Source of the DNA: Deltaproteobacteria bacterium CG11_big_fil_rev_8_21_14_0_20_45_16
Lineage (GTDB): Bacteria > Bdellovibrionota > UBA2394
Assembly (NCBI GenBank): GCA_002787535.1
Contig: PCXB01000059.1
Location: forward strand, 1-35,578
Direction: 5' to 3'
Length of the DNA: 35,578 bases
The translations under genes and the position numbers were made by a program. Every line of letters begins with the position of its first letter. Position 1 is the first letter of the stretch. The notes under the pieces were generated by a model that saw nothing but the letters and a program-made list of their open reading frames with translations, did no database searches and was not told where the DNA came from. Positions 13,496 to 25,248 of the stretch are shown piece by piece.

Positions 13496-13524
13496 AATAG
13501 TCTTTCAGTTTCTGAAAGACTATT
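13496..13524 (-). terminator. Perfect 13-bp stem hairpin at the end of the csoR-hupE-DUF6488 operon
   Basis: The arms AATAGTCTTTCAG and CTGAAAGACTATT are perfectly complementary with a 3-base loop. The stop codon of the DUF6488 gene (13520-13522) lies in the stem. The T-run after the stem is weak on either strand, so it may act as an intrinsic terminator or as an mRNA 3'-end stabiliser. Confidence 0.55.
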
Positions 13525-13855
13525 TTCCCGTATGATTTGCCGCAAGGGCATCCCCAAAAATAGTCATAAAGATATATAGCATTCGTTTTGTTTCATCTTT
13601 CTCTTTAGGATTCTTAAAACTCACGACCCACTCTTGTCCCTGCGACTTTACTTCAAGCGGATCCACCTTTGACCATGAAGCATCCATTCGTTTAGCCGTC
13701 ACGAGCTGGCCCACAAGCACTTTTCCTCTTTGGCCAAGTTGCTTTTCCGTAAGAGGAACGGACGAGTAAGACTGGTGCCCACCCGCATGTGCCAACACAT
13801 TTTCCATATAGAGGCCACCTATTATATAGGCTAAGACAAAAGCCAATCCTCTCAT
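13520..13855 (-). CDS. DUF6488-like small exported protein
   Basis: The 111-residue protein has a signal peptide (MRGLAFVLAYIIGGLYMENVLA) followed directly by AHAGGHQ, a His-containing mature N-terminus. The C-terminal part reads like DUF6488: a Q-x-L-V helix, DASWSKVDP, EWVVSFKNP and a final strand ending LYIFMTIFGDALAANHTGK. It begins one base after the hupE/ureJ-like gene and shares the csoR transcript, which ties it to metal handling in the periplasm. The biochemical role is unknown. Confidence 0.7.
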   Translation of the reverse strand: MRGLAFVLAYIIGGLYMENVLAHAGGHQSYSSVPLTEKQLGQRGKVLVGQLVTAKRMDASWSKVDPLEVKSQGQEWVVSFKNPKEKDETKRMLYIFMTIFGDALAANHTGK

Positions 13856-14718
13856 TATCTTTCTCCTTCTTCTTCAGTTTGAACACCCGGAACGGCATCA
13901 AACAGATTTTCATGTTTCGGTAAATTTGATTTAAATTCTTCCTGCATCCTTTCATGATGATGGGAGTGATTATCTTCTGCAAAACCAAAATCATCCGGAC
14001 TTTGAGTGTGAAGGTAGCCATGGAGTTGCATCAGTAGCAATATAAATCCCCCCAAAATCAATCCGTCATTGGCGACCCTGCTAAAATGCTTAAAGGAAAC
14101 GGTTTTTCTCCAAGTCGAAAGTACCAAGAGCATAAATGCCAGCGCCACTATCTGGCCAATCTCAACTCCAACGTTAAAAGAAACGATTCGCATCAACATA
14201 TGAAGAGAGTTATCACCCAAGGGCAGTTGCTGAAGTCGAGTAGAAAGGCCAAAGCCATGTATGAGTCCAAAGGCAAACACCATTCCGAGTAAACTCGGAG
14301 CTTTCACCCCAAGATAATTCTTAAACCCATTGTTATTATCAAATCCTTTGTAACAAACACTGATCGCAATCACCGCATCAATCAAAAAATAATTTGCAGT
14401 GACCCCCATAAAAGTCGCGAAAATCAACGTAATACTGTGCCCAATCGTAAAAACAGTGATGAACTTAATGATATCTCGGAAGGTCGTTAGAAAGAAAATC
14501 ACTCCAAAAAGAAACAGCAAATGATCATATCCCGTAAGCATGTGGGTTGCTCCGAGCCACACATACTTTAGATAGCCCCCACTCAACATCGCCGTCTTAT
14601 CCGCATCAGATATCCCATGAGCCCAAATTGAATTACTCATGCCAAATAAAACGACAACACTAATGATGGCATAGATTACAAACCATATTCTATTATTCTG
14701 ATTCAGTTTAATGATCAT
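13855..14718 (-). CDS. HupE/UreJ-family membrane protein
   Basis: The 287-residue protein has about seven membrane segments and the HupE/UreJ hallmark near the N-terminus of the mature protein (GATHMLTGYDHLLFLFGVIFF), followed by TIGHSITLIFA and FGLIHGFG. These His/Asp residues in helices are thought to bind a transition metal. Classical members are nickel permeases, but here the gene overlaps csoR by four bases and lies in a copper-efflux island, so copper is a reasonable alternative. A His-rich soluble tail (NHSHHHERMQEE, about residue 245) follows the last helix. The N-terminus has a signal-anchor-like helix ending SIWAHGISDADK. Confidence 0.82.
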   Translation of the reverse strand: MIIKLNQNNRIWFVIYAIISVVVLFGMSNSIWAHGISDADKTAMLSGGYLKYVWLGATHMLTGYDHLLFLFGVIFFLTTFRDIIKFITVFTIGHSITLIFATFMGVTANYFLIDAVIAISVCYKGFDNNNGFKNYLGVKAPSLLGMVFAFGLIHGFGLSTRLQQLPLGDNSLHMLMRIVSFNVGVEIGQIVALAFMLLVLSTWRKTVSFKHFSRVANDGLILGGFILLLMQLHGYLHTQSPDDFGFAEDNHSHHHERMQEEFKSNLPKHENLFDAVPGVQTEEEGER

Positions 14719-14990
14719 AAAAACTTATAGATCTCCTTGAATTCTGCGAGTTGTTTTCTACGTGATCGACTATCTGGCTCTATAGCAACATGCTCTAGAC
14801 AGTGCTCAATATGGTCATGGATGAAAATCTTTTTTGCTTTATTGAGAGCTTCGACAACGGCGTGAAACTGTTGGGCAACTTCTAAACACCCCTCATCCTG
14901 CTCAATCATCTGCACTACCTTATTCAGATGCCCCTGCGCTCGGTGCAGACGATTGATGATATCTGGATGAGATTGATGAATCGCTCCCAT
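14715..14990 (-). CDS. csoR: CsoR-type metal-sensing repressor
   Basis: The all-helical 91-residue protein is of the DUF156 family (CsoR/RcnR/FrmR), with INRLHRAQGHLNKVVQMIE as the family signature. With ATG 14990 as start, Cys35, His60 and Cys64 fall in the C-H-C arrangement of copper-sensing CsoR, and residue 64 is Cys rather than the His of nickel/cobalt RcnR. An ATG at 14996 is also possible, but GGAGG lies only 2 bases from it, against 8 from 14990. The palindrome at 14992-15018 covers this ribosome binding site, which suggests autorepression relieved by Cu(I). It heads an overlapping csoR-hupE-DUF6488 unit and ends in a 4-base overlap with the hupE-like gene. The symbol is given by sensor type, not by proven function. 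Confidence 0.85.
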   Translation of the reverse strand: MGAIHQSHPDIINRLHRAQGHLNKVVQMIEQDEGCLEVAQQFHAVVEALNKAKKIFIHDHIEHCLEHVAIEPDSRSRRKQLAEFKEIYKFL

Positions 14991-14991
14991 G

Positions 14992-15018
14992 GCCATATCC
15001 TCCCCCGGAGGATATGGC
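14992..15018. promoter_or_regulatory. Palindromic operator candidate over the csoR ribosome binding site
   Basis: The arms GCCATATCCTCC (14992-15003) and GGAGGATATGGC (15007-15018) are perfectly complementary with spacer CCC. A C/G-tract flanked by AT-containing inverted repeats is the general style of CsoR/RcnR operators. On the minus strand the right half of the palindrome supplies the GGAGG Shine-Dalgarno sequence of csoR, so binding or RNA folding here would block expression directly. Confidence 0.65.
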
Positions 15019-15062: not shown

Positions 15063-18000
15063 CTACCCGAACTTTTCCAAATCTCGAGCCTTCCAAATTG
15101 CAAAGATTGCCGGATAGACAAGAAGTTCCATCAAAAACGAAGAGAAAATCCCCCCCACCATCGGAGCCGCCATTCTCTTCATGACATCAGCGCCAATCAT
15201 CGAACTGCCGGCCCACATAATGGGAAGCAAGGCCATAAAAGTTGTTGCGACCGTCATCACCTTAGGTCGAACTCTGGCCACCGCTCCTTCATGAATAGCT
15301 TCTCTTAAATCTTTAAACGAAGTCATTCGGCCTTCCTTTTTAAAGCGTTCATAGGCGAGGTCCAGATAAAGGAGCATAAAAATTCCCATCTCCGCATCAA
15401 TCCCCAGCAGTGCAATAAGGCCCACCCACACTGCAATACTCGTATTGTAATCAAGAATATAAAGAAACCAGATCGCTCCTATTGCCGAAAAGGGAATCGC
15501 CAGAAAAACAATTCCAGTTTTAATAAATGAGCGCGTATTCATTAAAATTAAAATAAAAATTATGAGAAGTGTGATGGGAACCACTACGCCCAGTTTTTCC
15601 TTAACTCGCACAATGCTGGCATACTGACCGGACCATTCCAAACTGACCCCAGGGGGTAATTCTATATTCTGTGCTACTGTTTCTTTCGCATTTTCAACAT
15701 AGGTGCCGATGTCCACCTCATCGAGATCAATAAAAACATAGCCCGCAAGAAGACCGTTTTCGTTTCGAATCATTCCCGGGCCTGTTCGCATTTGAATTCG
15801 AGCGATATCACCCACTGGAACTTGAGCTCCTTTTGGAGTTTGTAAAAGTATGCGGTTAAGATCGGGAATGGAGTTTCTAAAATCTCTCGCATAACGCACT
15901 TGAATTCCATAACGCTCTCGACCGTCAATAGCGGTGCTCACTACTTTCCCACCAAGAGCGGACGTTAAAACCTCTTGAGCTTGCTTAATCGTAAATCCAT
16001 AGCGAGCTAAGGCCTCTCGATTAAATTCAAAATCTAGAAAGAATCCTCCCGCTACTCTCTCAGAAAATACTCCTCGCGTTCCGTGCACCTTAAGAAGGCT
16101 CGCTTCAAGCTGCTGACCGAGTTGTTCGATAACCTTCAAGTCATTACCTAAAATTTTTATCCCAACTGGAGTTCGCATTCCGGTTGTAAGCATATCGATT
16201 CGACCCTTGATCGGAAGCGTCCAAGCGTTCACCAGGCCAGGAAATTGCATTTTTGAATTCATTTCTCGAATCAGCTCTTCCCAAGAAAGTTGCGCCGGCC
16301 ATATCCATTTAAAAGGACCCTCCATAAAATCGGGCAGAAATGAATACCATCTCTCCTTCGTTCTCCACTCACTCGGGTCTTTCAAAACAACCACTGTTTC
16401 CATCATCGAAAAAGGGGCAGGATCTGTAGCCGTTTCAGCCCGGCCCGCCTTACCATGAACACTTAGCACCTCTGGAAAACTTTTTAAGATGGCATCTTGC
16501 TTTTGAAGAAGTGCTGCAGCTTCTCCGACAGACATTCCGGGGACCGTTGTGGGCATATACAAAATGGTTCCCTCATTGAGAGGTGGCATAAACTCACTAC
16601 CCAACTTAAAAAATATGGGAATCGTAACCAGAACCATCACTGTTGCAATGGCAATCACACTCTTTCTCCATGTGACGACAAAGTCTACAGCCGGCCCGTA
16701 GATTCTAAAAAGCTTTCGACTGATGGGATGCTCGTTTTCCCCTCGAATGCTTCCAATAAAAATGGTGTTGTAGATTTTTTTTAGAAAGCCTGAAGCTTGC
16801 TTAAAAGGCTTCATCTGATTGAGCGCAACAATCAGCGCTGGAGTGAGTGTCACCGCAAGTAAAGCCGCAATAAGCATGGATAAATTTTTGGTATAAGCAA
16901 GAGGCTTAAATAGTTTTCCCTCTTGAGCTTCAAGAGCAAAGATAGGTACGAAAGAAACCGCTATCACTAAAAGAGAGTAAAAGCTCGCAGGCGCTACCTC
17001 TCGAATGGCCGCACTGACGAGTGTCATTTTTTCTTTGGCATCAACTTCATGCCCGATATGCTCTAGCTTCTTCCTGACATTTTCAACAACGATGATGGCA
17101 GCATCAACTAAAGCTCCTATGGCAATCGCAATTCCACCCAAAGACATAATGTTCGCGGACACCCCAAAGAGATACATGGGTATAAAACTCAAGATCACCG
17201 CCGTCGGCAACGTGATGATCGGAACAATCGCACTTGGGAAGTGGAGTAAAAACAATAAAATAATAAGAGCAACAACAAGCATCTCGTGTGTTAAAGTTTT
17301 CTTTAGAGTCTCAATTGCTTTGCTAATTAAATCAGAACGGTCATAGGTTGCGACAAGCTCCACTCCCTTTGGAAGTGAACCTTTGAGCGATTCAATTTTC
17401 TCCTTCACGCGCTCAATGACTGCTGCCGCGTTTTCTTCGTGCCTCATAACCACAATGCCGCCCACAACATCACCTTCACCATTGAAATCAGCAACGCCTC
17501 GTCTCATCTCAGGTGCCAAGACAACTCGTGCTAAATTCTTGACGTAAACCGGAACGCCTTTCGAAGTTTTGACGACAATATTTTCAATATCTTCAATATT
17601 TTTGGCGTAGCCACGAACCCGAATCATATATTCGATTCCAGAAAGTTCGATCACTCTCGCTCCGCGCTCTTGATTTCCTTCTTCCACGGCTTTCAAAACA
17701 TCTTGTAAGCTTACGCCATAAGAAATAAGCGCATTTGGATTTACCTGAATTTGATACTGCTTTTCGAAGCCTCCAAAGCTAGCGACTTCAGAAACACCTC
17801 GAACCGATTGAATCTGAAATTTTAAAAACCAGTCTTGATAAGCTCGTAAATCCCCGAGTGAATAATTTCCGGTTTTATCGACAAGAGCATATTGATAGAC
17901 CCAACCCACGCCTGTGGCATCCGGGCCCAGCTCAATTTCAACCCCTTCAGGAAGCTGCGGCGTAATCGTTGAGAGATATTCAAGCACTCGGCTTCGAGCC

Positions 18001-18311
18001 CAGTACAAATCCGTGTCATCTTCAAAGATGGCATAAACATAAGAGCGCCCATAATCAGAAAGCCCCCGAATCGTCTTAAGCTTCGGTACCCCTAAAAGTC
18101 TGGTAACAATGGGATAGGTGACCTGATCTTCAATAATGTCAGGGCTTTGATTCCATTTTGAAAAAACAATGACTTGAGTATCTGTAAGATCTGGAATGGC
18201 ATCGACAGAAATTCGTTTCATCGAATAGATGCCAATTAAAACAAGGGCAAAGACAACTCCTAAAACGAGAAATCTTTGACGTATTGAAAAGTCTATAATT
18301 CGATCTAGCAC
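15063..18311 (-). CDS. cusA: CusA/CzcA-family heavy-metal RND efflux pump
   Basis: This 1082-residue inner-membrane proton antiporter drives metal ions through the tripartite pump. It has twelve membrane segments with two large periplasmic loops, and the RND motifs LVDAAIIVVENVRKKLE (helix 4) and MAAPMVGGIFSSFLMELLVY near the C-terminus. The methionines that carry Cu(I)/Ag(I) in CusA appear conserved: VPGMSVGEAA, APFSMMETVV and GRIDMLTTGMRTPVGIKI, so copper/silver is favoured over Zn/Co/Cd. The GTG start follows the adaptor stop directly. It is the last gene of a TolC-adaptor-pump operon driven by an ECF-type promoter at 20804-20832. The symbol reflects family resemblance. Confidence 0.92.
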   Translation of the reverse strand: MLDRIIDFSIRQRFLVLGVVFALVLIGIYSMKRISVDAIPDLTDTQVIVFSKWNQSPDIIEDQVTYPIVTRLLGVPKLKTIRGLSDYGRSYVYAIFEDDTDLYWARSRVLEYLSTITPQLPEGVEIELGPDATGVGWVYQYALVDKTGNYSLGDLRAYQDWFLKFQIQSVRGVSEVASFGGFEKQYQIQVNPNALISYGVSLQDVLKAVEEGNQERGARVIELSGIEYMIRVRGYAKNIEDIENIVVKTSKGVPVYVKNLARVVLAPEMRRGVADFNGEGDVVGGIVVMRHEENAAAVIERVKEKIESLKGSLPKGVELVATYDRSDLISKAIETLKKTLTHEMLVVALIILLFLLHFPSAIVPIITLPTAVILSFIPMYLFGVSANIMSLGGIAIAIGALVDAAIIVVENVRKKLEHIGHEVDAKEKMTLVSAAIREVAPASFYSLLVIAVSFVPIFALEAQEGKLFKPLAYTKNLSMLIAALLAVTLTPALIVALNQMKPFKQASGFLKKIYNTIFIGSIRGENEHPISRKLFRIYGPAVDFVVTWRKSVIAIATVMVLVTIPIFFKLGSEFMPPLNEGTILYMPTTVPGMSVGEAAALLQKQDAILKSFPEVLSVHGKAGRAETATDPAPFSMMETVVVLKDPSEWRTKERWYSFLPDFMEGPFKWIWPAQLSWEELIREMNSKMQFPGLVNAWTLPIKGRIDMLTTGMRTPVGIKILGNDLKVIEQLGQQLEASLLKVHGTRGVFSERVAGGFFLDFEFNREALARYGFTIKQAQEVLTSALGGKVVSTAIDGRERYGIQVRYARDFRNSIPDLNRILLQTPKGAQVPVGDIARIQMRTGPGMIRNENGLLAGYVFIDLDEVDIGTYVENAKETVAQNIELPPGVSLEWSGQYASIVRVKEKLGVVVPITLLIIFILILMNTRSFIKTGIVFLAIPFSAIGAIWFLYILDYNTSIAVWVGLIALLGIDAEMGIFMLLYLDLAYERFKKEGRMTSFKDLREAIHEGAVARVRPKVMTVATTFMALLPIMWAGSSMIGADVMKRMAAPMVGGIFSSFLMELLVYPAIFAIWKARDLEKFG

Positions 18312-19529
18312 CTACTCGCCCACCTTTTTCATGCAGTGATTCATTTGTTCATGCCACTCTTCACCTGGAGGACATTGTGGAGCTTGTTTTTTAGAATTTT
18401 CGGATGAGGTGAGCACCGCTTTCAATCTGGATTCGGAATCAATCAAAAAGTTTCCGCTTGTGACCACTTTTTCACCGTCTTCAAGGCCAGCTCCAATCGC
18501 CGCAAGCTCTCCCGCATAAAACTTTAGTTCCACTTTGCGTGGTTCTAAATGACCATTTCCATGATCGACAAAAACATAAACCTGCTTGCCTGTATCGAAA
18601 ATAGCTTCATTCGAAACGCTCAAATGCAGCCCTTGATCCGAAAGAATCGTCACGTTGACAAAAGATTCGGGTCGAAGCTTAATCCCTTCGGTATTGAGCC
18701 GAATTCTTACTTTTGCCGTTCTTGTTTCGGGATTAATCACCTCATCTACCGAAAAAATTTCTCCTTCGAGAGTTTTTCCTTCAAGAGCTGCACCGGTCAC
18801 TCTTGCCTTGTGCCCCTCTCGAACATTATGCAAATCCATTTCATACACATCCGCATAAATCCACACCTGACTCTCACCACCAGGAAGCAACAACTCATCA
18901 GTCAGTCGAGTATCGGCAGAAATAGATTTGAGTTGTGATTCAGACAAACCCATAATTCGAAGACGAGTTCTTGCGGAGTCAATCATGCGCTGGGTATTGT
19001 TTCTTACGTCTGCAATTGATGATTTTCTGGTGAGTTGCCGTTGCCGAAGTGCTTCACGGTATTCTCCAAGAACAGTATAAAGCTCTGGATCAAAAGCAAC
19101 TCGCCCCGCCGCAGAAATTGTTTTAGAAAGCTCTCTTTCTTTTACTGACTCAGACTTGACACCAATGAGTTGGCGTCTATTTAAACTAAGCTTTACCATC
19201 CCATGCCCTGACGGTCTCTGGGTCAAATCACTTGAAACTTCTTCAGCCTTGGTCATGTCCGCTTCAGAATCTTTACCATAGTGAGAGTCAGCTCCCTGCT
19301 GATCCTCCATCGGCACCAGATCCATTCCGCAAATGGGACATGCTCCTTCGCGATCTGAAGTAATATGAGGATGCATCGGACAATAAAACTGCGCTTCTTT
19401 TTGTTTCATTTGTGAGTTCGATGTCGAATCATTGGAGCTACAGGACTGTAGGAAAAAGATAGTACCTAGACTAAAAATAATCATCAGTAGCGACAAGCCT
19501 GTTCGGTTTAAATTAAATAATTTTCTCAT
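18312..19529 (-). CDS. cusB: CusB-like periplasmic adaptor with heavy-metal-binding finger
   Basis: The 405-residue membrane-fusion protein links the RND pump to the outer-membrane channel. It starts with a lipoprotein signal (lipobox LQSC, Cys30) and has a heavy-metal-binding domain at residues 48-74 (FYCPMHPHITSD...CPICGMDLVPM) seen in CusB/CzcB relatives. The barrel-sandwich and beta-barrel parts follow (VSNEAIFDTGKQVYVFVD, GLEDGEKVVTSGNFLIDSES), then a C-terminal Cys/His/Met tail (APQCPPGEEWHEQMNHCMKK) that may bind metal too. A good ribosome binding site (AGGGGA) precedes ATG 19529. It overlaps the TolC gene by four bases and abuts cusA. Confidence 0.9.
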   Translation of the reverse strand: MRKLFNLNRTGLSLLMIIFSLGTIFFLQSCSSNDSTSNSQMKQKEAQFYCPMHPHITSDREGACPICGMDLVPMEDQQGADSHYGKDSEADMTKAEEVSSDLTQRPSGHGMVKLSLNRRQLIGVKSESVKERELSKTISAAGRVAFDPELYTVLGEYREALRQRQLTRKSSIADVRNNTQRMIDSARTRLRIMGLSESQLKSISADTRLTDELLLPGGESQVWIYADVYEMDLHNVREGHKARVTGAALEGKTLEGEIFSVDEVINPETRTAKVRIRLNTEGIKLRPESFVNVTILSDQGLHLSVSNEAIFDTGKQVYVFVDHGNGHLEPRKVELKFYAGELAAIGAGLEDGEKVVTSGNFLIDSESRLKAVLTSSENSKKQAPQCPPGEEWHEQMNHCMKKVGE

Positions 19530-20776
19530 AAATTCCCCTGAAGACTTTCAACATCGATGACTTCTCTGCCAATAATCAGCTCGTATTGTGTAAGAAGCCT
19601 TACGTAGTCAATCAAAACAGCATATGACTTAATCTGAACACCTAGCAAAAAACGCTCCCGTTCAAGTAAATCTAAAAAGCTGGCTTTAGACGCTTTATAA
19701 GATGAAGAGGTGGCGCTGTAACTCGTTTGAGCCTGTGGAATCAGTGCGTTTTCATAGATTTCTAAAAGTTCACTTTGAGTTTTTAGATTTTCGACCAAAG
19801 TATACCGCTCTCGATCGATTTTATTTTTTGTCGCCAGAAGTTCGGCTTGCTTTTGATTTTGCTCGTACTGGGCAGCCTGAGCTTTTCCTGTAGGGCCCCA
19901 AAACCAAAGTGGCACGCTGGCTTCTAACATAAGAATATATGAATCTTCTGGCAGCCCAGAAAACTGTCTTTGATATCGAACTTGAAAATCCGGCATAAAC
20001 TCTAAACGGGCTTCATATTTTTTGTCGTCCGCTTCAAGATAAACCTCCCGAGCAATTTGCAGATCAAAGGAACCCTCTAAGGACTGTTCAAATTCTGGAA
20101 GAGGTGGTGACTTCAAATCTAAATCAGATAGTTCAAGAGAAACATTTTGAGAGATATTAAGAAGTTCTTTAAGTCGACTCAAAGCAGTCGTTTTCTTTTG
20201 TTGAAGCAAACGAATTTCAGCCTCTAGACTTGTCTGCTCCACATGCGCCCGCATCGAATCAGTTTGTGAGGCATCTCCAGAGGTATATTTTCTTTCGGCA
20301 ACACGAGCGACTTCGCGAATCGCATTACGATTGGCTTCGGTAAACTGAATCATTTGGCCTAAACTATAGACTTCGTAATAGGTATAAATCAGCTCGCCTC
20401 TTTGTTTGAGAGCCATAGCAGAGTATTTAATATCTGCGCCACGAGCCCTATGTTTTTGAGCTGAGCCTCTTGCAAGGTACGAAGATGGAAATTCTACTTT
20501 TTGACTAACACCCCAGTATTTCGTATTATTTCCTCGATCAAGTTCTTGGTAACTGATCATCGGATCAGGAGGAGCATATTGGCTCTTCACAAGAGCTGCT
20601 TCTTTTTTAGCATTTTGCTTCATACCTCTGATTTGAGGGTTCTCTTTTTTTAATATCTGAATAGCCTCAACCAAACTCAATGTTCTCTCTTCAGCAACGA
20701 CCAAAATGCTCCAAATGCTGAAGAAAATCAGGCTCGCAAAGACGCTAAAACTTCGAAATCTCATCATTTTTCGCAT
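19526..20776 (-). CDS. cusC: TolC-family outer-membrane channel of the metal efflux pump
   Basis: The product of about 416 residues is an outer-membrane efflux protein: signal peptide (FASLIFFSIWSILVVAEE) then long helical repeats, beginning SLVEAIQILKKENPQIRGMK, with the usual beta-barrel segments. An ATG at 20797 is open, but it sits at the predicted transcription start. GGGAGG at 20788-20793 points to ATG 20776 (MRKMMRFRSF). It is the first gene of the efflux operon, four bases overlapping with the adaptor. The ECF-type promoter at 20804-20832 lies just upstream. The symbol is by position in a cusCBA-like operon; CzcC is the alternative name. Confidence 0.87.
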   Translation of the reverse strand: MRKMMRFRSFSVFASLIFFSIWSILVVAEERTLSLVEAIQILKKENPQIRGMKQNAKKEAALVKSQYAPPDPMISYQELDRGNNTKYWGVSQKVEFPSSYLARGSAQKHRARGADIKYSAMALKQRGELIYTYYEVYSLGQMIQFTEANRNAIREVARVAERKYTSGDASQTDSMRAHVEQTSLEAEIRLLQQKKTTALSRLKELLNISQNVSLELSDLDLKSPPLPEFEQSLEGSFDLQIAREVYLEADDKKYEARLEFMPDFQVRYQRQFSGLPEDSYILMLEASVPLWFWGPTGKAQAAQYEQNQKQAELLATKNKIDRERYTLVENLKTQSELLEIYENALIPQAQTSYSATSSSYKASKASFLDLLERERFLLGVQIKSYAVLIDYVRLLTQYELIIGREVIDVESLQGNL

Positions 20777-20803
20777 TTCTAGGCAGACCTCCCTCATATA
20801 GAA

Positions 20804-20832
20804 TAATACGATAAGGCATGGGCTTCGTGACA
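20804..20832 (-). promoter_or_regulatory. ECF-sigma promoter for the efflux operon
   Basis: Read on the minus strand, TGTCAC (20832-20827), 15 bases, then TCGTATTA (20811-20804). This matches two plus-strand copies at 20838 and 22130 in both boxes and in exact spacing. Transcription would start close to 20797, just before the ribosome binding site of the TolC gene. Confidence 0.8.
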
Positions 20833-20837
20833 GTCTT

Positions 20838-20866
20838 TGTCACATTTTTTTTGCCAGGTCGTATTG
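20838..20866 (+). promoter_or_regulatory. ECF-sigma autoregulatory promoter
   Basis: TGTCAC (20838-20843), 15 bases, then TCGTATTG (20859-20866), placed just before the ECF sigma gene. Its -35 box is back to back with that of the divergent efflux promoter, forming the inverted repeat GTGACA-N5-TGTCAC at 20827-20843. Transcription would start a few bases before ATG 20879, giving a very short leader. Confidence 0.8.
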
Positions 20867-20878
20867 AAAGGTAGACTC

Positions 20879-21436
20879 ATGCACGAGCTGAGTGATGAAA
20901 AACTAATGGAGGCCTATAAACAGGGCGACTCAAAGGCATTTGAAATGCTTTTTGACCGATATGAAAAGCGTCTTAAAGCCTATTTTCAAAAGCGTTTGAG
21001 CCCTAAACAGTTTCCTGAAGCGGAGGATTTTTTTCAAATGACCTGGCTCAAGCTTCATAACAATCGAAAAAGCTTTGATAGTTCAAAGAAGTTTGCCCCA
21101 TGGCTATATACAATTGCGCTGAATGTTCTTCGAGATCATCTTAGATCCGGGCGTTCAAAGGCTCTTGATATGCCATTTGATGAAAATTTAGCGACCACAA
21201 ACGGCTTTGAAACGGCTGAAACAACAATGATTGGCCGGCAACAGTTTGAAAAGATAACGGAAGGCTTGTCCATTCTCACAGAATCTCAAAAAGAAATTGT
21301 ACTTTTAAGTGATTGGGAAGGATTTGGCTCCAAAGAAATAAGCCAAATGCTGGGTCTTAAAGATGCAACCGTTCGTCAGCAGCTCAGTCGTGCTCGCAAA
21401 AGCTTACAGCTTCATTTAAAGGAACTTGTAAAATGA
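20879..21436 (+). CDS. ECF-type RNA polymerase sigma factor
   Basis: The 185-residue sigma-70 family protein has only regions 2 and 4. Region 2 covers residues of about 8-80 (KLMEAYKQGDSKAFEMLFD, EAEDFFQMTWLKLH, FAPWLYTIALNVLRDHLR) and region 4 covers about 125-180 (LTESQKEIVLLSDWEGFGSK, EISQMLGLKDATVRQQLSRA). A TTG at 20837 also opens the frame but lies inside the promoter; ATG 20879 gives the normal ECF N-terminus. The downstream membrane gene overlaps by four bases (ATGA) and is probably its anti-sigma factor. The matching promoter upstream indicates positive autoregulation, and the same signature before the pump and the oxidase cluster defines the likely regulon. Confidence 0.93.
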   Translation: MHELSDEKLMEAYKQGDSKAFEMLFDRYEKRLKAYFQKRLSPKQFPEAEDFFQMTWLKLHNNRKSFDSSKKFAPWLYTIALNVLRDHLRSGRSKALDMPFDENLATTNGFETAETTMIGRQQFEKITEGLSILTESQKEIVLLSDWEGFGSKEISQMLGLKDATVRQQLSRARKSLQLHLKELVK

Positions 21437-22140
21437 AGGGAGGCACTTCCGATATCAAAAGCTCAATTCTTGAAGCTCTTCAGGAAGAAAAGCAAAGTCC
21501 TGTAAAACGAGCTCGTAAAATCCTTAATTTATTGGCAGCGATTAGCATTCCTGTTGTTGGCATTTTATGGTTTTCGTTCCGAGGAGAATTTAATCTCTTT
21601 TGGCTTGTCTCACTTATCGTCTGGCTTGGCATTGCCGCAAGCGCTGCATTTTTTTTCTGGAAGCCCCAACCTCGTATTATTGTTCCCGGTTTTTGGACGA
21701 GCTGGATGTACGGAAAGCTCCTCATTCTATTTTTACTAATTAGCGCTATTCAGCTCTTGGTTTGTCCGCACTTAGCCATGATTTCTCCCTCACCTCATTT
21801 TTCAATCAATGTTTTTGAACCCATGCAAGAAATGTTTATGTCTTGGGGAGGCATGGCTTCTTGTATGTTTTTTTGTGGGCTGAGTTTTTCAGCAATTGCG
21901 ACCGCCATTTCTCTTTTTATAATGCGACGCGCTGCGACTGGAGCCCGTTCGGCAGCCATTTTTAGAATTTCTAGCATAGCCGTCCTTGCTCAATTTCCTA
22001 TTATCATTCTTCAGATTTCTGACGCGCATTTGCGCAGTCACTTTGCGCTATGGCTCTTGGGAAGTTTTTTAGGGGTGCTATCTCTCTCAGCGCTTTTTTC
22101 AATTCTCTTTAAGAAAATATCATACGCCTTGTCACATTGA
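21433..22140 (+). CDS. NrsF-like (DUF1109-like) six-TM anti-sigma factor
   Basis: The 235-residue protein has a short cytoplasmic N-terminus (SSILEALQEEKQSPVKRARK) and six hydrophobic segments ending with LLGSFLGVLSLSALFSILFK, the layout of the NrsF/DUF1109 anti-sigma factors. It is coupled to the ECF gene by a 4-base overlap, the usual sigma/anti-sigma arrangement. A cluster of possible Cu(I) ligands lies at residues 131-148: Met131, Met134, Met136, Met141, Cys144, Met145 and Cys148. Cys111, His113 and His122 are nearby. In known NrsF proteins two cysteines are needed for signal sensing. I infer that copper or thiol oxidation releases the sigma factor. Sequence similarity to DUF1109 is by pattern, not by search. 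Confidence 0.75.
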   Translation: MKGGTSDIKSSILEALQEEKQSPVKRARKILNLLAAISIPVVGILWFSFRGEFNLFWLVSLIVWLGIAASAAFFFWKPQPRIIVPGFWTSWMYGKLLILFLLISAIQLLVCPHLAMISPSPHFSINVFEPMQEMFMSWGGMASCMFFCGLSFSAIATAISLFIMRRAATGARSAAIFRISSIAVLAQFPIIILQISDAHLRSHFALWLLGSFLGVLSLSALFSILFKKISYALSH

Positions 22141-22158
22141 AGCTCGTGATTCGTATTG
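22130..22158 (+). promoter_or_regulatory. ECF-sigma promoter for the small protein/haem-binding/oxidase cluster
   Basis: TGTCAC (22130-22135), 15 bases, then TCGTATTG (22151-22158), the same as the sigma gene promoter in both boxes and spacing. It begins inside the last codons of the anti-sigma gene and lies 39 bases before the start at 22197. Confidence 0.8.
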
Positions 22159-22196: not shown

Positions 22197-22445
22197 GTGA
22201 AAATTGTTTTATCGACATTGGCTATCTTGTCAGGACTTTCAATGACGCCCCTATCTGCAAATGAGGATCTGAGGGACTCGGAAACAAAAATACTTGTCAC
22301 CAAAGCAGAACTTCAAGGTATGGTAGAAAATATGCACGAAGAATTTATGGCAAAAAAAGAAAAACAACTGAAAGAAGAACAACTGGCACGAAGAAAAGAA
22401 ATGCTTAGTAGATTCTCTCTTCGACGTGGCGGTGATTTTCGCTAA
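22197..22445 (+). CDS. Small exported protein in the copper regulon
   Basis: The 82-residue product starts at GTG 22197 after AGGAGG at 22182-22187. Residues 1-21 are a signal peptide (TLAILSGLSMTPLSANE). The rest is a highly charged helix rich in Met, Lys, Glu and Arg (ENMHEEFMAKKEKQLKEEQL, then ARRKEML), ending RRGGDFR. No family is recognised. It is the first gene after the third ECF promoter and is followed 14 bases later by the haem-binding-domain gene. It might be a small periplasmic metal-binding or stress protein; this is inference from position only. Confidence 0.7.
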   Translation: MKIVLSTLAILSGLSMTPLSANEDLRDSETKILVTKAELQGMVENMHEEFMAKKEKQLKEEQLARRKEMLSRFSLRRGGDFR

Positions 22446-22459
22446 CATAAGGAGTCACC

Positions 22460-22966
22460 ATGAGAAGCTTATCCATTGCCACACTTAACTTGTTTCTCGC
22501 TTCAAGCCTCTATGCGCATGGAGGCGAAGATCACTCAAAAGCTACTCCAGAAAAGCAGTTAGAATCTAAGCCCGAGAAAATTGAAAAAATTGACAAAATA
22601 AAATTAGAGGCAATCGATCGGTCCTACAGAAAAACGCTGCAACCTATCTTTGAATCAAAGTGCTATGACTGTCACAGTAACAAAACGGACTACCCTTGGT
22701 ACCATTCGATTCCCGGCATTAAACAAATGATAAACTCTCATATCGAAGAGGGGAAAGAACATATCATTCTGTCTGAGGGGTTCCCTTTTCAAGGGCATGG
22801 CAGCTCGTCAGAAGACCTTGAAGAACTCAAGGAAGTTGTTGAAGAAGAAACAATGCCCATCTGGCAATACAAGCTCATCCATTGGAACTCGGGTTTAACG
22901 GAGAAGGAAAAAGAAATCGTACTTGAATGGGTCAAAGAATCTTCAAGTATCTTGGAAATTGATTAG
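22460..22966 (+). CDS. Periplasmic haem-binding-domain protein
   Basis: The 168-residue protein has a signal peptide (MRSLSIATLNLFLASSLYA) then HGGEDHSK, and a domain like Haem_bd (PF14376): LQPIFESKCYDCHSNKTDYP carries the single CxxCH haem-attachment motif, followed by WYHSIPGIKQMINSHIEEGK and a C-terminal MPIWQYKLIHWNSGLTEKEK helix pair. AAGGAG lies six bases before the ATG. It sits between the small exported protein and the multicopper oxidase and is expected in the same transcript. It may pass electrons or sense redox state in the periplasm; no reaction is established here. Confidence 0.85.
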   Translation: MRSLSIATLNLFLASSLYAHGGEDHSKATPEKQLESKPEKIEKIDKIKLEAIDRSYRKTLQPIFESKCYDCHSNKTDYPWYHSIPGIKQMINSHIEEGKEHIILSEGFPFQGHGSSSEDLEELKEVVEEETMPIWQYKLIHWNSGLTEKEKEIVLEWVKESSSILEID

Positions 22967-23127
22967 TTTCCTTAAGATTGATGTGAATAAGATAGAAAAA
23001 GCCGTTCAACTCATAAAATCATATCTTTCGCCTTGCTGCCAAGTTCATGAAATTTAAGGGCTTTTTGGCTCTCCTGCCAAGTAGTCTTACTTCCGCCACG
23101 AGAGCATTCGTGCTACAAGCGTCGAAC

Positions 23128-25248
23128 ATGAAAAGCCACTTGATTGCTTTATTGTCCCCCTTCTTTGTTGCACTTTTTTGTCTTCCTATTCTTACGCAAG
23201 CTGCTGAACGACGATATGAACTGACGATTGAAGAAGTCACTTGGAATATTACAGGTAAAGACGTGGACCACGCTCTCGCTATCAACGGAAGCATTCCTGC
23301 GCCAATTCTAAAATTTCAATTGGGTGATGATGCCGTCATCGAAGTCACAAACAAAACAACGGAACCTACCTCTGTCCATTGGCATGGAGTTCTTGTGCCT
23401 TGGAATATGGATGGTCCGATGTTCTCTAATAATCAACCAATTCAGCCGGGAGAAAGTTTTACTTTTCGATTTCCAATCAAACACACTGGAACTTATTGGT
23501 ATCACTCGCATACCGAGCTTCAAGAACAGCGGGGGCTTTATGGAGCAATCGTTATTGAGGATCATCACGAACGCATGAAGATTGACCATGATCTCGTTGT
23601 TGTCATGAGCGATTGGACGGACGAACGCCCGATGGATGTTTTAGCCAACTTGAAAAAAGATGGACACTACTACGCCTTCAAAAAGAAATTCTTCCCTTCC
23701 TGGGTGGGCGCTATTCGACACGGAGCCGTTTGGAATTATATCAAAGGACAATGGACTCGAATGGGAGCGATGGACTTAAGCGATGTGGGTTATGATGCCT
23801 TTTTAATTAATGGAAAGAAAATTTCTTCGTCCGTAGCAAACCTAAGGAAAGGTGACCGAGTACGACTTCGCTTGATCAATGCAGGAGCTTCTTCCTATTT
23901 TTATGTGAATATTGGCAACTTGCGACCCTTTCAGGTGATCTCAAAAGATGGCGTCGACGTAATGCCAGTGGAAGTGACGGAGTTATTAATGGGAATGGGA
24001 GAAACCTATGATTTAGTATTCGAAGTTCCCAACGACTTGGGCTTCGAGTTGCGCGCGACGGCACAGGATGTCACTGGCCATGCTTCGCTTATTTTGGGCG
24101 ATCAAGAAAATGCTGAAAGCGTTCCAAGTAAGATGAAACCAAACCCCTATATGATGGGAATGGACCACTCGGCGCACACCGACATGCCGACGCATCCCCC
24201 AGAACATCAAATGCCGATGGACGATCAAATGCCTACGGAGGCAGTCGAAGAAATAGCCTCTATGCCTATGACCAAGCGGCTCCATTACTCGATGCTTCGG
24301 TCTGTTAATCCTACTGCATTTGAAGAAAATCTTCCTCAACATGATATACGCCTTGAACTTTCGGGAGATATGGATCGATACCTATGGACGATCAACGGAA
24401 AAACTTTTTCTGAAGATAAATATATCATTATACGAGAAGGTGAAGTTGTTCGCTTCACACTCGTGAATCAAACAATGATGCATCACCCGATGCATTTACA
24501 CGGCCACTTCTTTCGGGTGCTTAATGAGCAGGGAGATTATTCTCCATTGTTTCACACCATCGATGTTGCCCCCATGAAAACGGAAACGATTGAGCTCTTG
24601 GCAAATGAGCCTGGAATTTGGTTTTTTCATTGTCACAATCTCTATCATATGAAAATGGGGATGGCTCGATGGGTTAAATATGAAAACTTTGAACGACCAG
24701 AAGAGCTCGTCAGGGTGGAAAAAGAACAGGCCAAACAGTTCACAAAAGACTCCGACTTATTTTTTAGTGGTAAGGTGGATCTGTACTCAAATCATGCGGA
24801 ATTAGACTTACGACTCAATGGTGGCCGCTATGAGGCGGATCTTACCTTTGAGATCGACGAATATGCGGCAGATACTTTGGAGGCTGATCTCGCTTTTAAA
24901 TACTACGTTGATCGCTACTTTGCTCCACTTGCCGGAGTAGAATATAGGGATGACGACATTGCTGGAATACTCGGGGCCACCTATCTAGCGCCGGGTGAAA
25001 TACAAATGACGGGTTATATGACGACGGAAGGTCAAGCCGTCATTAAGCTCAGTAAACAGTTTGATATTGTTGACCGCTTACTCTTAGAAGTTGGGGGTGA
25101 AGGGCGTTTCTTTACTGGAGAGCCTGAGTGGGAAGCGGAAGCCGAATTGAAGTATCGGATTCGACAAAATTTAGATTTCGGAGTCTTTTACAAATGGGAT
25201 GAAGAAAAAGACCATAGGGTCGGCTTAGGATTTTCTTTGTCCTTTTAA
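23128..25248 (+). CDS. Multicopper oxidase (CopA-like) with CopB-like C-terminal domain
   Basis: ATG 23128 gives a good signal peptide (MKSHLIALLSPFFVALFC, then LPILTQAAERRY); the frame is open to ATG 23047, which lacks a ribosome binding site. Cupredoxin copper motifs are complete: HWHG, TYWYHSHTE, HHPMHLHGHFFRVL and FFHCHNLYHMKMGMARW (type 1 Cys with axial Met). A Met/His-rich linker sits in the middle (MMGMDHSAHTDM, MPMDDQMP). Residues after about 555 form strand-rich, alternating sequence ending GLGFSLSF with terminal Phe, like the CopB outer-membrane copper-resistance protein. That makes a CopA-CopB-like fusion of about 706 residues, longer than usual CopA. It would oxidise Cu(I) in the periplasm. 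It ends 13 bases from the convergent dmeF-like gene. Confidence 0.9.
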   Translation: MKSHLIALLSPFFVALFCLPILTQAAERRYELTIEEVTWNITGKDVDHALAINGSIPAPILKFQLGDDAVIEVTNKTTEPTSVHWHGVLVPWNMDGPMFSNNQPIQPGESFTFRFPIKHTGTYWYHSHTELQEQRGLYGAIVIEDHHERMKIDHDLVVVMSDWTDERPMDVLANLKKDGHYYAFKKKFFPSWVGAIRHGAVWNYIKGQWTRMGAMDLSDVGYDAFLINGKKISSSVANLRKGDRVRLRLINAGASSYFYVNIGNLRPFQVISKDGVDVMPVEVTELLMGMGETYDLVFEVPNDLGFELRATAQDVTGHASLILGDQENAESVPSKMKPNPYMMGMDHSAHTDMPTHPPEHQMPMDDQMPTEAVEEIASMPMTKRLHYSMLRSVNPTAFEENLPQHDIRLELSGDMDRYLWTINGKTFSEDKYIIIREGEVVRFTLVNQTMMHHPMHLHGHFFRVLNEQGDYSPLFHTIDVAPMKTETIELLANEPGIWFFHCHNLYHMKMGMARWVKYENFERPEELVRVEKEQAKQFTKDSDLFFSGKVDLYSNHAELDLRLNGGRYEADLTFEIDEYAADTLEADLAFKYYVDRYFAPLAGVEYRDDDIAGILGATYLAPGEIQMTGYMTTEGQAVIKLSKQFDIVDRLLLEVGGEGRFFTGEPEWEAEAELKYRIRQNLDFGVFYKWDEEKDHRVGLGFSLSF

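Follow-up and report, generated by a model that had tools for sequence, protein, structure and literature searches.

The locus described here places genes for an RND efflux pump, a multicopper oxidase and an ECF sigma factor side by side, and the question it raises is what reads the element that precedes each of these groups of genes, and in response to which signal. It lies in a stretch of DNA of 35,578 nucleotides, the whole of which was analysed and is called the window below. An earlier note on this DNA had proposed that three copies of one element are ECF-type promoters, one of them autoregulatory, that together define a copper regulon.

The window contains three copies of the element TGTCAC-N16-CGTATT and no more, at 20832-20805 on the minus strand and at 20838-20865 and 22130-22157 on the plus strand. 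It is the same element as the TGTCAC-N15-TCGTATT of the earlier note, and the identity of boxes and spacing that had been claimed for it holds, with 0 exact copies in 100 dinucleotide shuffles of the window. As had also been claimed, the copies stand immediately in front of gene starts: one before the efflux operon, one before the ECF gene and one before the cluster encoding a small protein, a haem-binding protein and an oxidase. In one of the three, G replaces the last A of TGTCACA. When the assembly (2,442,057 bp, 93.94% complete) was scanned with spacers of N15 to N17 allowed, the only exact TGTCAC/CGTATT matches were the three window copies, and a reversed-pattern control gave 0. The motif is thus not frequent genome-wide, its exact copies being confined to the window in a 2.44-Mb genome. 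Relaxing the -10 box to CGTA (N16/17) adds one match, at C29:3174, within a decayed duplicate of the locus. With two mismatches the scan returns noise (104 matches vs 92 for the control), and therefore only the full bipartite element is informative. The genome-wide search for metal-gene sites that had been suggested accordingly yields only the decayed duplicate in this genome; such sites are plentiful in relatives.

The distance from the end of the -10 box to the start codon is 13 nt for the ECF gene (ATG at 20879), approximately 39 nt for the small protein (GTG at 22197), and approximately 7 nt for the first possible ATG of the outer-membrane component (20797), for which a start at 20776, with GGGAGG upstream, is more likely. 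In relatives the ECF start is typically 11-15 nt past the -10 box, 12 nt being the commonest distance. As the start lies 12-13 nt past the box in the window and in most relatives, the leader is predicted to be very short, and the ECF message should be a nearly leaderless transcript in many families.

The genes themselves are consistent with the proposed circuit. The ECF protein matches Sigma70_r2 (E 3.7e-13) and Sigma70_r4_2 (E 2.2e-14), with TIGR02937 above its cut-off and no sigma3 region; read from M20879, its 185 residues contain zero cysteines. The gene for the predicted anti-sigma overlaps it and is translationally coupled to it. For the pump the score is 967 bits with E. coli CusA and 433 bits with ZneA, and its segments YMPTTVPG, PFSMMET and RIDMLTTG align with the three CusA methionines, which we take to be M573, M623 and M672. 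Together with the CopA-like oxidase, this conserved Met triad upholds copper as the likely signal.

Some further features of the neighbourhood may be mentioned. The oxidase carries a C-terminal extension of around 190 residues ending in Phe, whose top Pfam match is a sub-threshold one to CopB (E 0.09); from its sequence, the protein is possibly a CopA-CopB fusion. On the same strand after cusA, at 13520-14996, are genes for a DUF6488 protein, a HupE/UreJ-like protein and a metal-sensitive repressor (PF02583, CsoR/FrmR type). This cytoplasmic repressor may belong to the cusA operon. Two CDF-family genes adjoin the locus.

The second locus, at 1149-3496 of C29 in the same genome bin, is a partial decayed duplicate in which broken cusA fragments abut a truncated ECF gene. 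Only the 3' two-thirds of this gene is present, the N-terminal part being missing, with 60% identity over residues 63-182. The anti-sigma gene is intact (its product 69% identical) and is followed by the motif, with CGTAGT as the -10 box, and by a homologue of the 82-aa protein. This anti-sigma, without an intact sigma of its own, could cross-regulate the window ECF.

The motif recurs in relatives, which supports the proposal, at the level of sequence, of ECF-type autoregulated promoters forming one regulon. In G002, from another genus of the same family, the orthologous ECF gene is preceded and the anti-sigma gene followed by an exact copy, and the divergent OEP gene has a one-mismatch copy (CGTCAC) in front of it, which is the same three-promoter layout as in the window; the promoter 3 site is occupied both here (exact) and in the C29 duplicate (CGTAGT). 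One-mismatch copies ahead of the ECF gene and the efflux operon are present in two genomes of other families, G332 and G323, and G003 has TGTAAC-N16-CGTA facing both directions. In G001 an exact N17 copy lies ahead of a small protein that precedes the ECF gene, with a one-mismatch N16 copy elsewhere. The f9 and f11 genomes have one divergent promoter pair, with the ECF gene one way and haem-binding protein, OEP, CusB and CusA the other. The third promoter of G002, with its motif at 1181 on the minus strand of that locus (L079), precedes the gene of a secreted, Cys-rich peptide (MNKLMMSVFALMLGSSALFADTCSCDKEKACSCKECKCKDCHAKKTDKK), and a short peptide like it is encoded in G001, with the small-protein gene on one side and the ECF gene on the other; neither of these metallothionein-like peptides gave a confident family match. 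In genus g35 (L140, L144) the overlapping divergent promoters are seemingly fused into a palindrome-like CGTCACAAATTTGAAATGTGTGACGTA, located between the ECF gene and the divergent target.

Counts support the binding rule that had been proposed. TGTCAC-N16/17-CGTA is found upstream of 31 of the 46 ECF genes that lie beside an anti-sigma homologue and of 1 of the 29 that do not (Fisher p = 1e-8), a value that overstates independence, as the counts come partly from related species, and in which the 29 partner-less ECFs include distant lineages of other phyla; the difference is nonetheless a large one. The sites number 50, where dinucleotide shuffles give an expectation of 0.005. Columns beyond the searched pattern are conserved as well, giving TGTCACAAA-N13/14-TCGTA(A/T)T, with a spacer that is mostly N16 in the window's own family and mostly N17 in more distant families. 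The strict motif was not found at the other 15 of the 46 anti-sigma-linked loci, some of which have variants (TGTAAC, CGTCAC), while in others none was seen; the comparison of orthologous ECF/partner promoters that had been suggested thus bears out the rule in most pairs and not in all. Across 369 genomes of the phylum, TGTCACA-N15/16-CGTAWT gives 244 matches against 38 for the reversed control, a control figure tallied by hand. Among the first 30 loci, some of whose matches look like chance, the genes behind the motif include ECF, efflux-operon OEP, Haem_bd, HMA, heavy-metal transport, CsoR-like and RND pump genes, a content that fits copper handling. When genome contigs were scanned with the window ECF itself, the matches were all distant ECFs of other phyla that lack the membrane partner.

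Table 1 Features of the locus, in window positions. Functions are predicted.
Feature	Position	Strand	Target or basis
Promoter 1	20804..20832	-	cusCBA-like efflux operon; motif match, with counterparts before the divergent OEP gene in G002 and G332
Promoter 2	20838..20866	+	ECF sigma/anti-sigma operon (autoregulatory); site occupied in most relatives
Promoter 3	22130..22158	+	Small protein/haem-binding/oxidase genes; overlaps 3' end of anti-sigma gene
CusA-type RND pump, E. coli CusA Met triad conserved	15063..18311	-	Alignment, scores
CusB-like periplasmic adaptor with heavy-metal-binding domain	18312..19529	-	Domain matches
Outer-membrane efflux protein (OEP), CusC-like position	19526..20797	-	Probable true start 20776
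ECF sigma factor, sigma2 + sigma4, 185 aa, no C-terminal extension	20879..21436	+	Pfam Sigma70_r2, r4_2
Predicted anti-sigma, 6 hydrophobic segments, short N-terminal tail	21433..22140	+	Cys111/144/148 invariant in family
Small exported-looking charged protein, 82 aa	22197..22445	+	Homologues behind motif in C29 duplicate and G001
Haem-binding domain protein (PF14376)	22460..22966	+	Homologues lead motif-driven operons in distant families
Multicopper oxidase, CopA-like	23047..25248	+	Exact start uncertain

The membrane partner had been taken for NrsF, and this part of the earlier interpretation has to be abandoned. The protein has no match among Pfam or NCBIfam models. A PF06532 search at E <= 10 left the window protein and the partners from G001 and G002 unmatched, while it did recover the C47 and C73 proteins of the same genome and that of Caulobacter. 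HHalign against NrsF gave a probability of 5.4% for the 6-TM set and 1.3% for the 4-TM set; the 6-TM and 4-TM sets matched each other at 98%. The PF06532 search and HHalign together rule out NrsF, and by these comparisons the partner is a previously undescribed membrane family of four or six helices. Its profile has significant matches in 68 of the 369 genomes, and most of those examined adjoin ECF genes. In a tree of 70 ECFs the partner-linked ones cluster (3 label changes vs 21.2 when shuffled), with the NrsF-linked ECFs grouping near or among them.

All 47 family sequences compared have the same three invariant cysteines, in the pattern CP[Q/H]F ... G..CxxxCG. Hydropathy indicates six hydrophobic segments in the window protein, the cysteines lying where segment 3 ends and where segment 4 begins; given a cytoplasmic N-terminus, the predicted topology would put all three at the periplasmic face. 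A single-sequence AlphaFold model has an N-terminal helix and six further helices, consistent with hydropathy, at a confidence (pLDDT 59.6) too low for cysteine geometry or a fold search. From the gene coupling, the topology and analogy with known systems, we infer that this membrane protein is the anti-sigma.

The proposed system shares features with several that are already known. Searches of the literature for copper ECFs in Bdellovibrio gave nothing relevant. In CnrYXH of Cupriavidus metallidurans a membrane anti-sigma holds an ECF that controls an RND metal pump, as is predicted for the window. CnrYXH has a separate sensor (CnrX), a single-TM anti-sigma (CnrY) and Ni/Co as its metals, whereas a multi-helix partner and copper are predicted here. 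CorE, the copper-dependent ECF of Myxococcus xanthus, regulates genes for the detoxification of copper, among them those of a multicopper oxidase and of a copper ATPase (PMC10141476, PMC3107203). The predicted window targets likewise include copper detoxification genes with a multicopper oxidase, but in CorE the copper sensor is a Cys-rich extension at the C-terminus of the sigma itself rather than an anti-sigma, and the window ECF has no such extension.

A close parallel is SigF-NrsF of Caulobacter (PMC3511200, PMC8224329), where an ECF gene is followed by that of a six-TM anti-sigma with a short N-terminal tail, the topology predicted by hydropathy for the window protein. SigF-NrsF also has conserved, probably periplasmic cysteines, a copper-responsive regulon and autoregulation, all of which are predicted in the window too. 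The hydropathy and the cysteine positions of the window protein fit such an arrangement, which would point to a similar way of working rather than to membership of the NrsF family. NrsF residues C131 and C181 are regarded as periplasmic and as influencing sigma-F release (PMC3511200). The window anti-sigma differs in being non-homologous to NrsF (DUF1109/PF06532) and in having three cysteines in CP[Q/H]F...CxxxCG against two in NrsF. The regulons differ as well: SigF targets DUF692/DUF2282 genes rather than CusCBA and an oxidase, and the SigF promoter is GTAACC-N16-CGAA (PMC3511200), against TGTCAC-N16-CGTATT here. The same genome contains genuine ECF-NrsF pairs on C47 and C73, with an ORF near each that looks YceI-like by eye. 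The C47 ECF gene has a GTAACC-N15-CGAA site upstream, and because this is SigF-like, the NrsF-type and window-type sigmas can be told apart by promoter.

On the basis of these observations we consider it very probable that the window ECF uses the three elements as its promoters, that the anti-sigma holds it until copper sets it free, and that it then drives the pump, the oxidase and its own operon. The DNA itself shows the promoter rule, that this rule is conserved, and that it goes with this sigma/anti-sigma lineage and with copper genes; that the window ECF reads the three sites, and that the anti-sigma senses copper through its cysteines, are what these features suggest. Without a signal, the co-encoded anti-sigma would hold the sigma factor at the inner membrane. 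Excess periplasmic Cu(I) or Ag(I) would probably bind to or react with the three invariant cysteines, which are predicted to flank a loop that joins two helices on the periplasmic side, perhaps with nearby Met/His, and the resulting change of shape would free the sigma factor. The freed sigma would then transcribe its own operon, in positive feedback, together with the CusCBA-type pump, which would export copper from the periplasm, and the small protein/haem-binding/multicopper oxidase genes, whose products would bind and oxidise Cu(I). Copper as the specific signal is suggested by the kinds of genes present, and Ag, Zn or redox stress are other possible signals.

Other readings of the sites have been considered. 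The TGTCAC boxes could be operator half-sites of a DNA-binding copper regulator of the CusR/CopR type rather than -35 boxes. CusR-type boxes are inverted repeats of the GTGACA-N5-TGTCAC kind, and just such a perfect back-to-back repeat, noted earlier as a shared feature of the -35 boxes, is indeed present between the efflux and ECF genes. However, at the third copy only one box is present, the box-to-box distance in divergent pairs of relatives varies from 1 to 117 nt, CGTA is always conserved as well at a fixed 16/17 nt, and the motif follows an ECF lineage, all of which makes an operator very improbable. With its spacing not conserved, a functional -35 dyad is ruled out, and on this comparative evidence the repeat, though real, is incidental. 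We give equally little credence to the idea that the sites serve a different sigma, such as that of one of the genome's ECF-NrsF pairs or an ECF41-like one, their position being coincidental. What lends it interest is that ECF41 sigmas recognise TGTCACA-N16-CGTC, with a spacer of 16 +/- 1 (PMC3426412), so that the -35 sequence TGTCACA, the spacer and a CGT-type -10 are shared with the window. The -10 box of the window is nevertheless CGTA(T/A)T and not CGTC; in ECF41 a regulatory domain is fused to the C-terminus and COE genes are the targets, and the 185-aa window ECF lacks that extension, its neighbours being the membrane protein and copper genes, with no COE gene. Moreover, the motif adjoins the window ECF lineage across the phylum rather than NrsF-linked ECFs, and the C47 ECF has its SigF-like site instead.

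A stronger alternative, if still an unlikely one, accepts the promoters and the ECF as described and differs in the signal, which would mainly be a soft metal other than copper, or else thiol/redox stress, the cysteines serving as a redox switch. The SigF-NrsF system, in which the cysteines are probably periplasmic, reacts to Cr and Cd in addition to Cu (PMC3511200, PMC8224329), and some relatives (for example L156) have the motif ahead of a different RND pump or other heavy-metal genes. Against this, the window pump is CusA-type by its Met triad and the oxidase belongs with those of copper resistance, and we favour copper as the signal.

More broadly, it seems reasonably likely that the window belongs to a phylum-wide ECF group whose 4-/6-helix anti-sigmas sense periplasmic copper through CP[Q/H]F...CxxxCG, with the promoter code given above. 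For an ECF lineage in around 20 families of one phylum, the analysis provides a promoter rule that can be tested and that predicts regulon members in uncultured genomes, and it names a new candidate family of metal-sensing anti-sigmas with three invariant cysteines. It also indicates that a -35 word called ECF41-specific is common to another ECF lineage as well. If the proposal is true, the ECF/Cys-triad anti-sigma system would be a main copper-efflux regulator of these bacteria.
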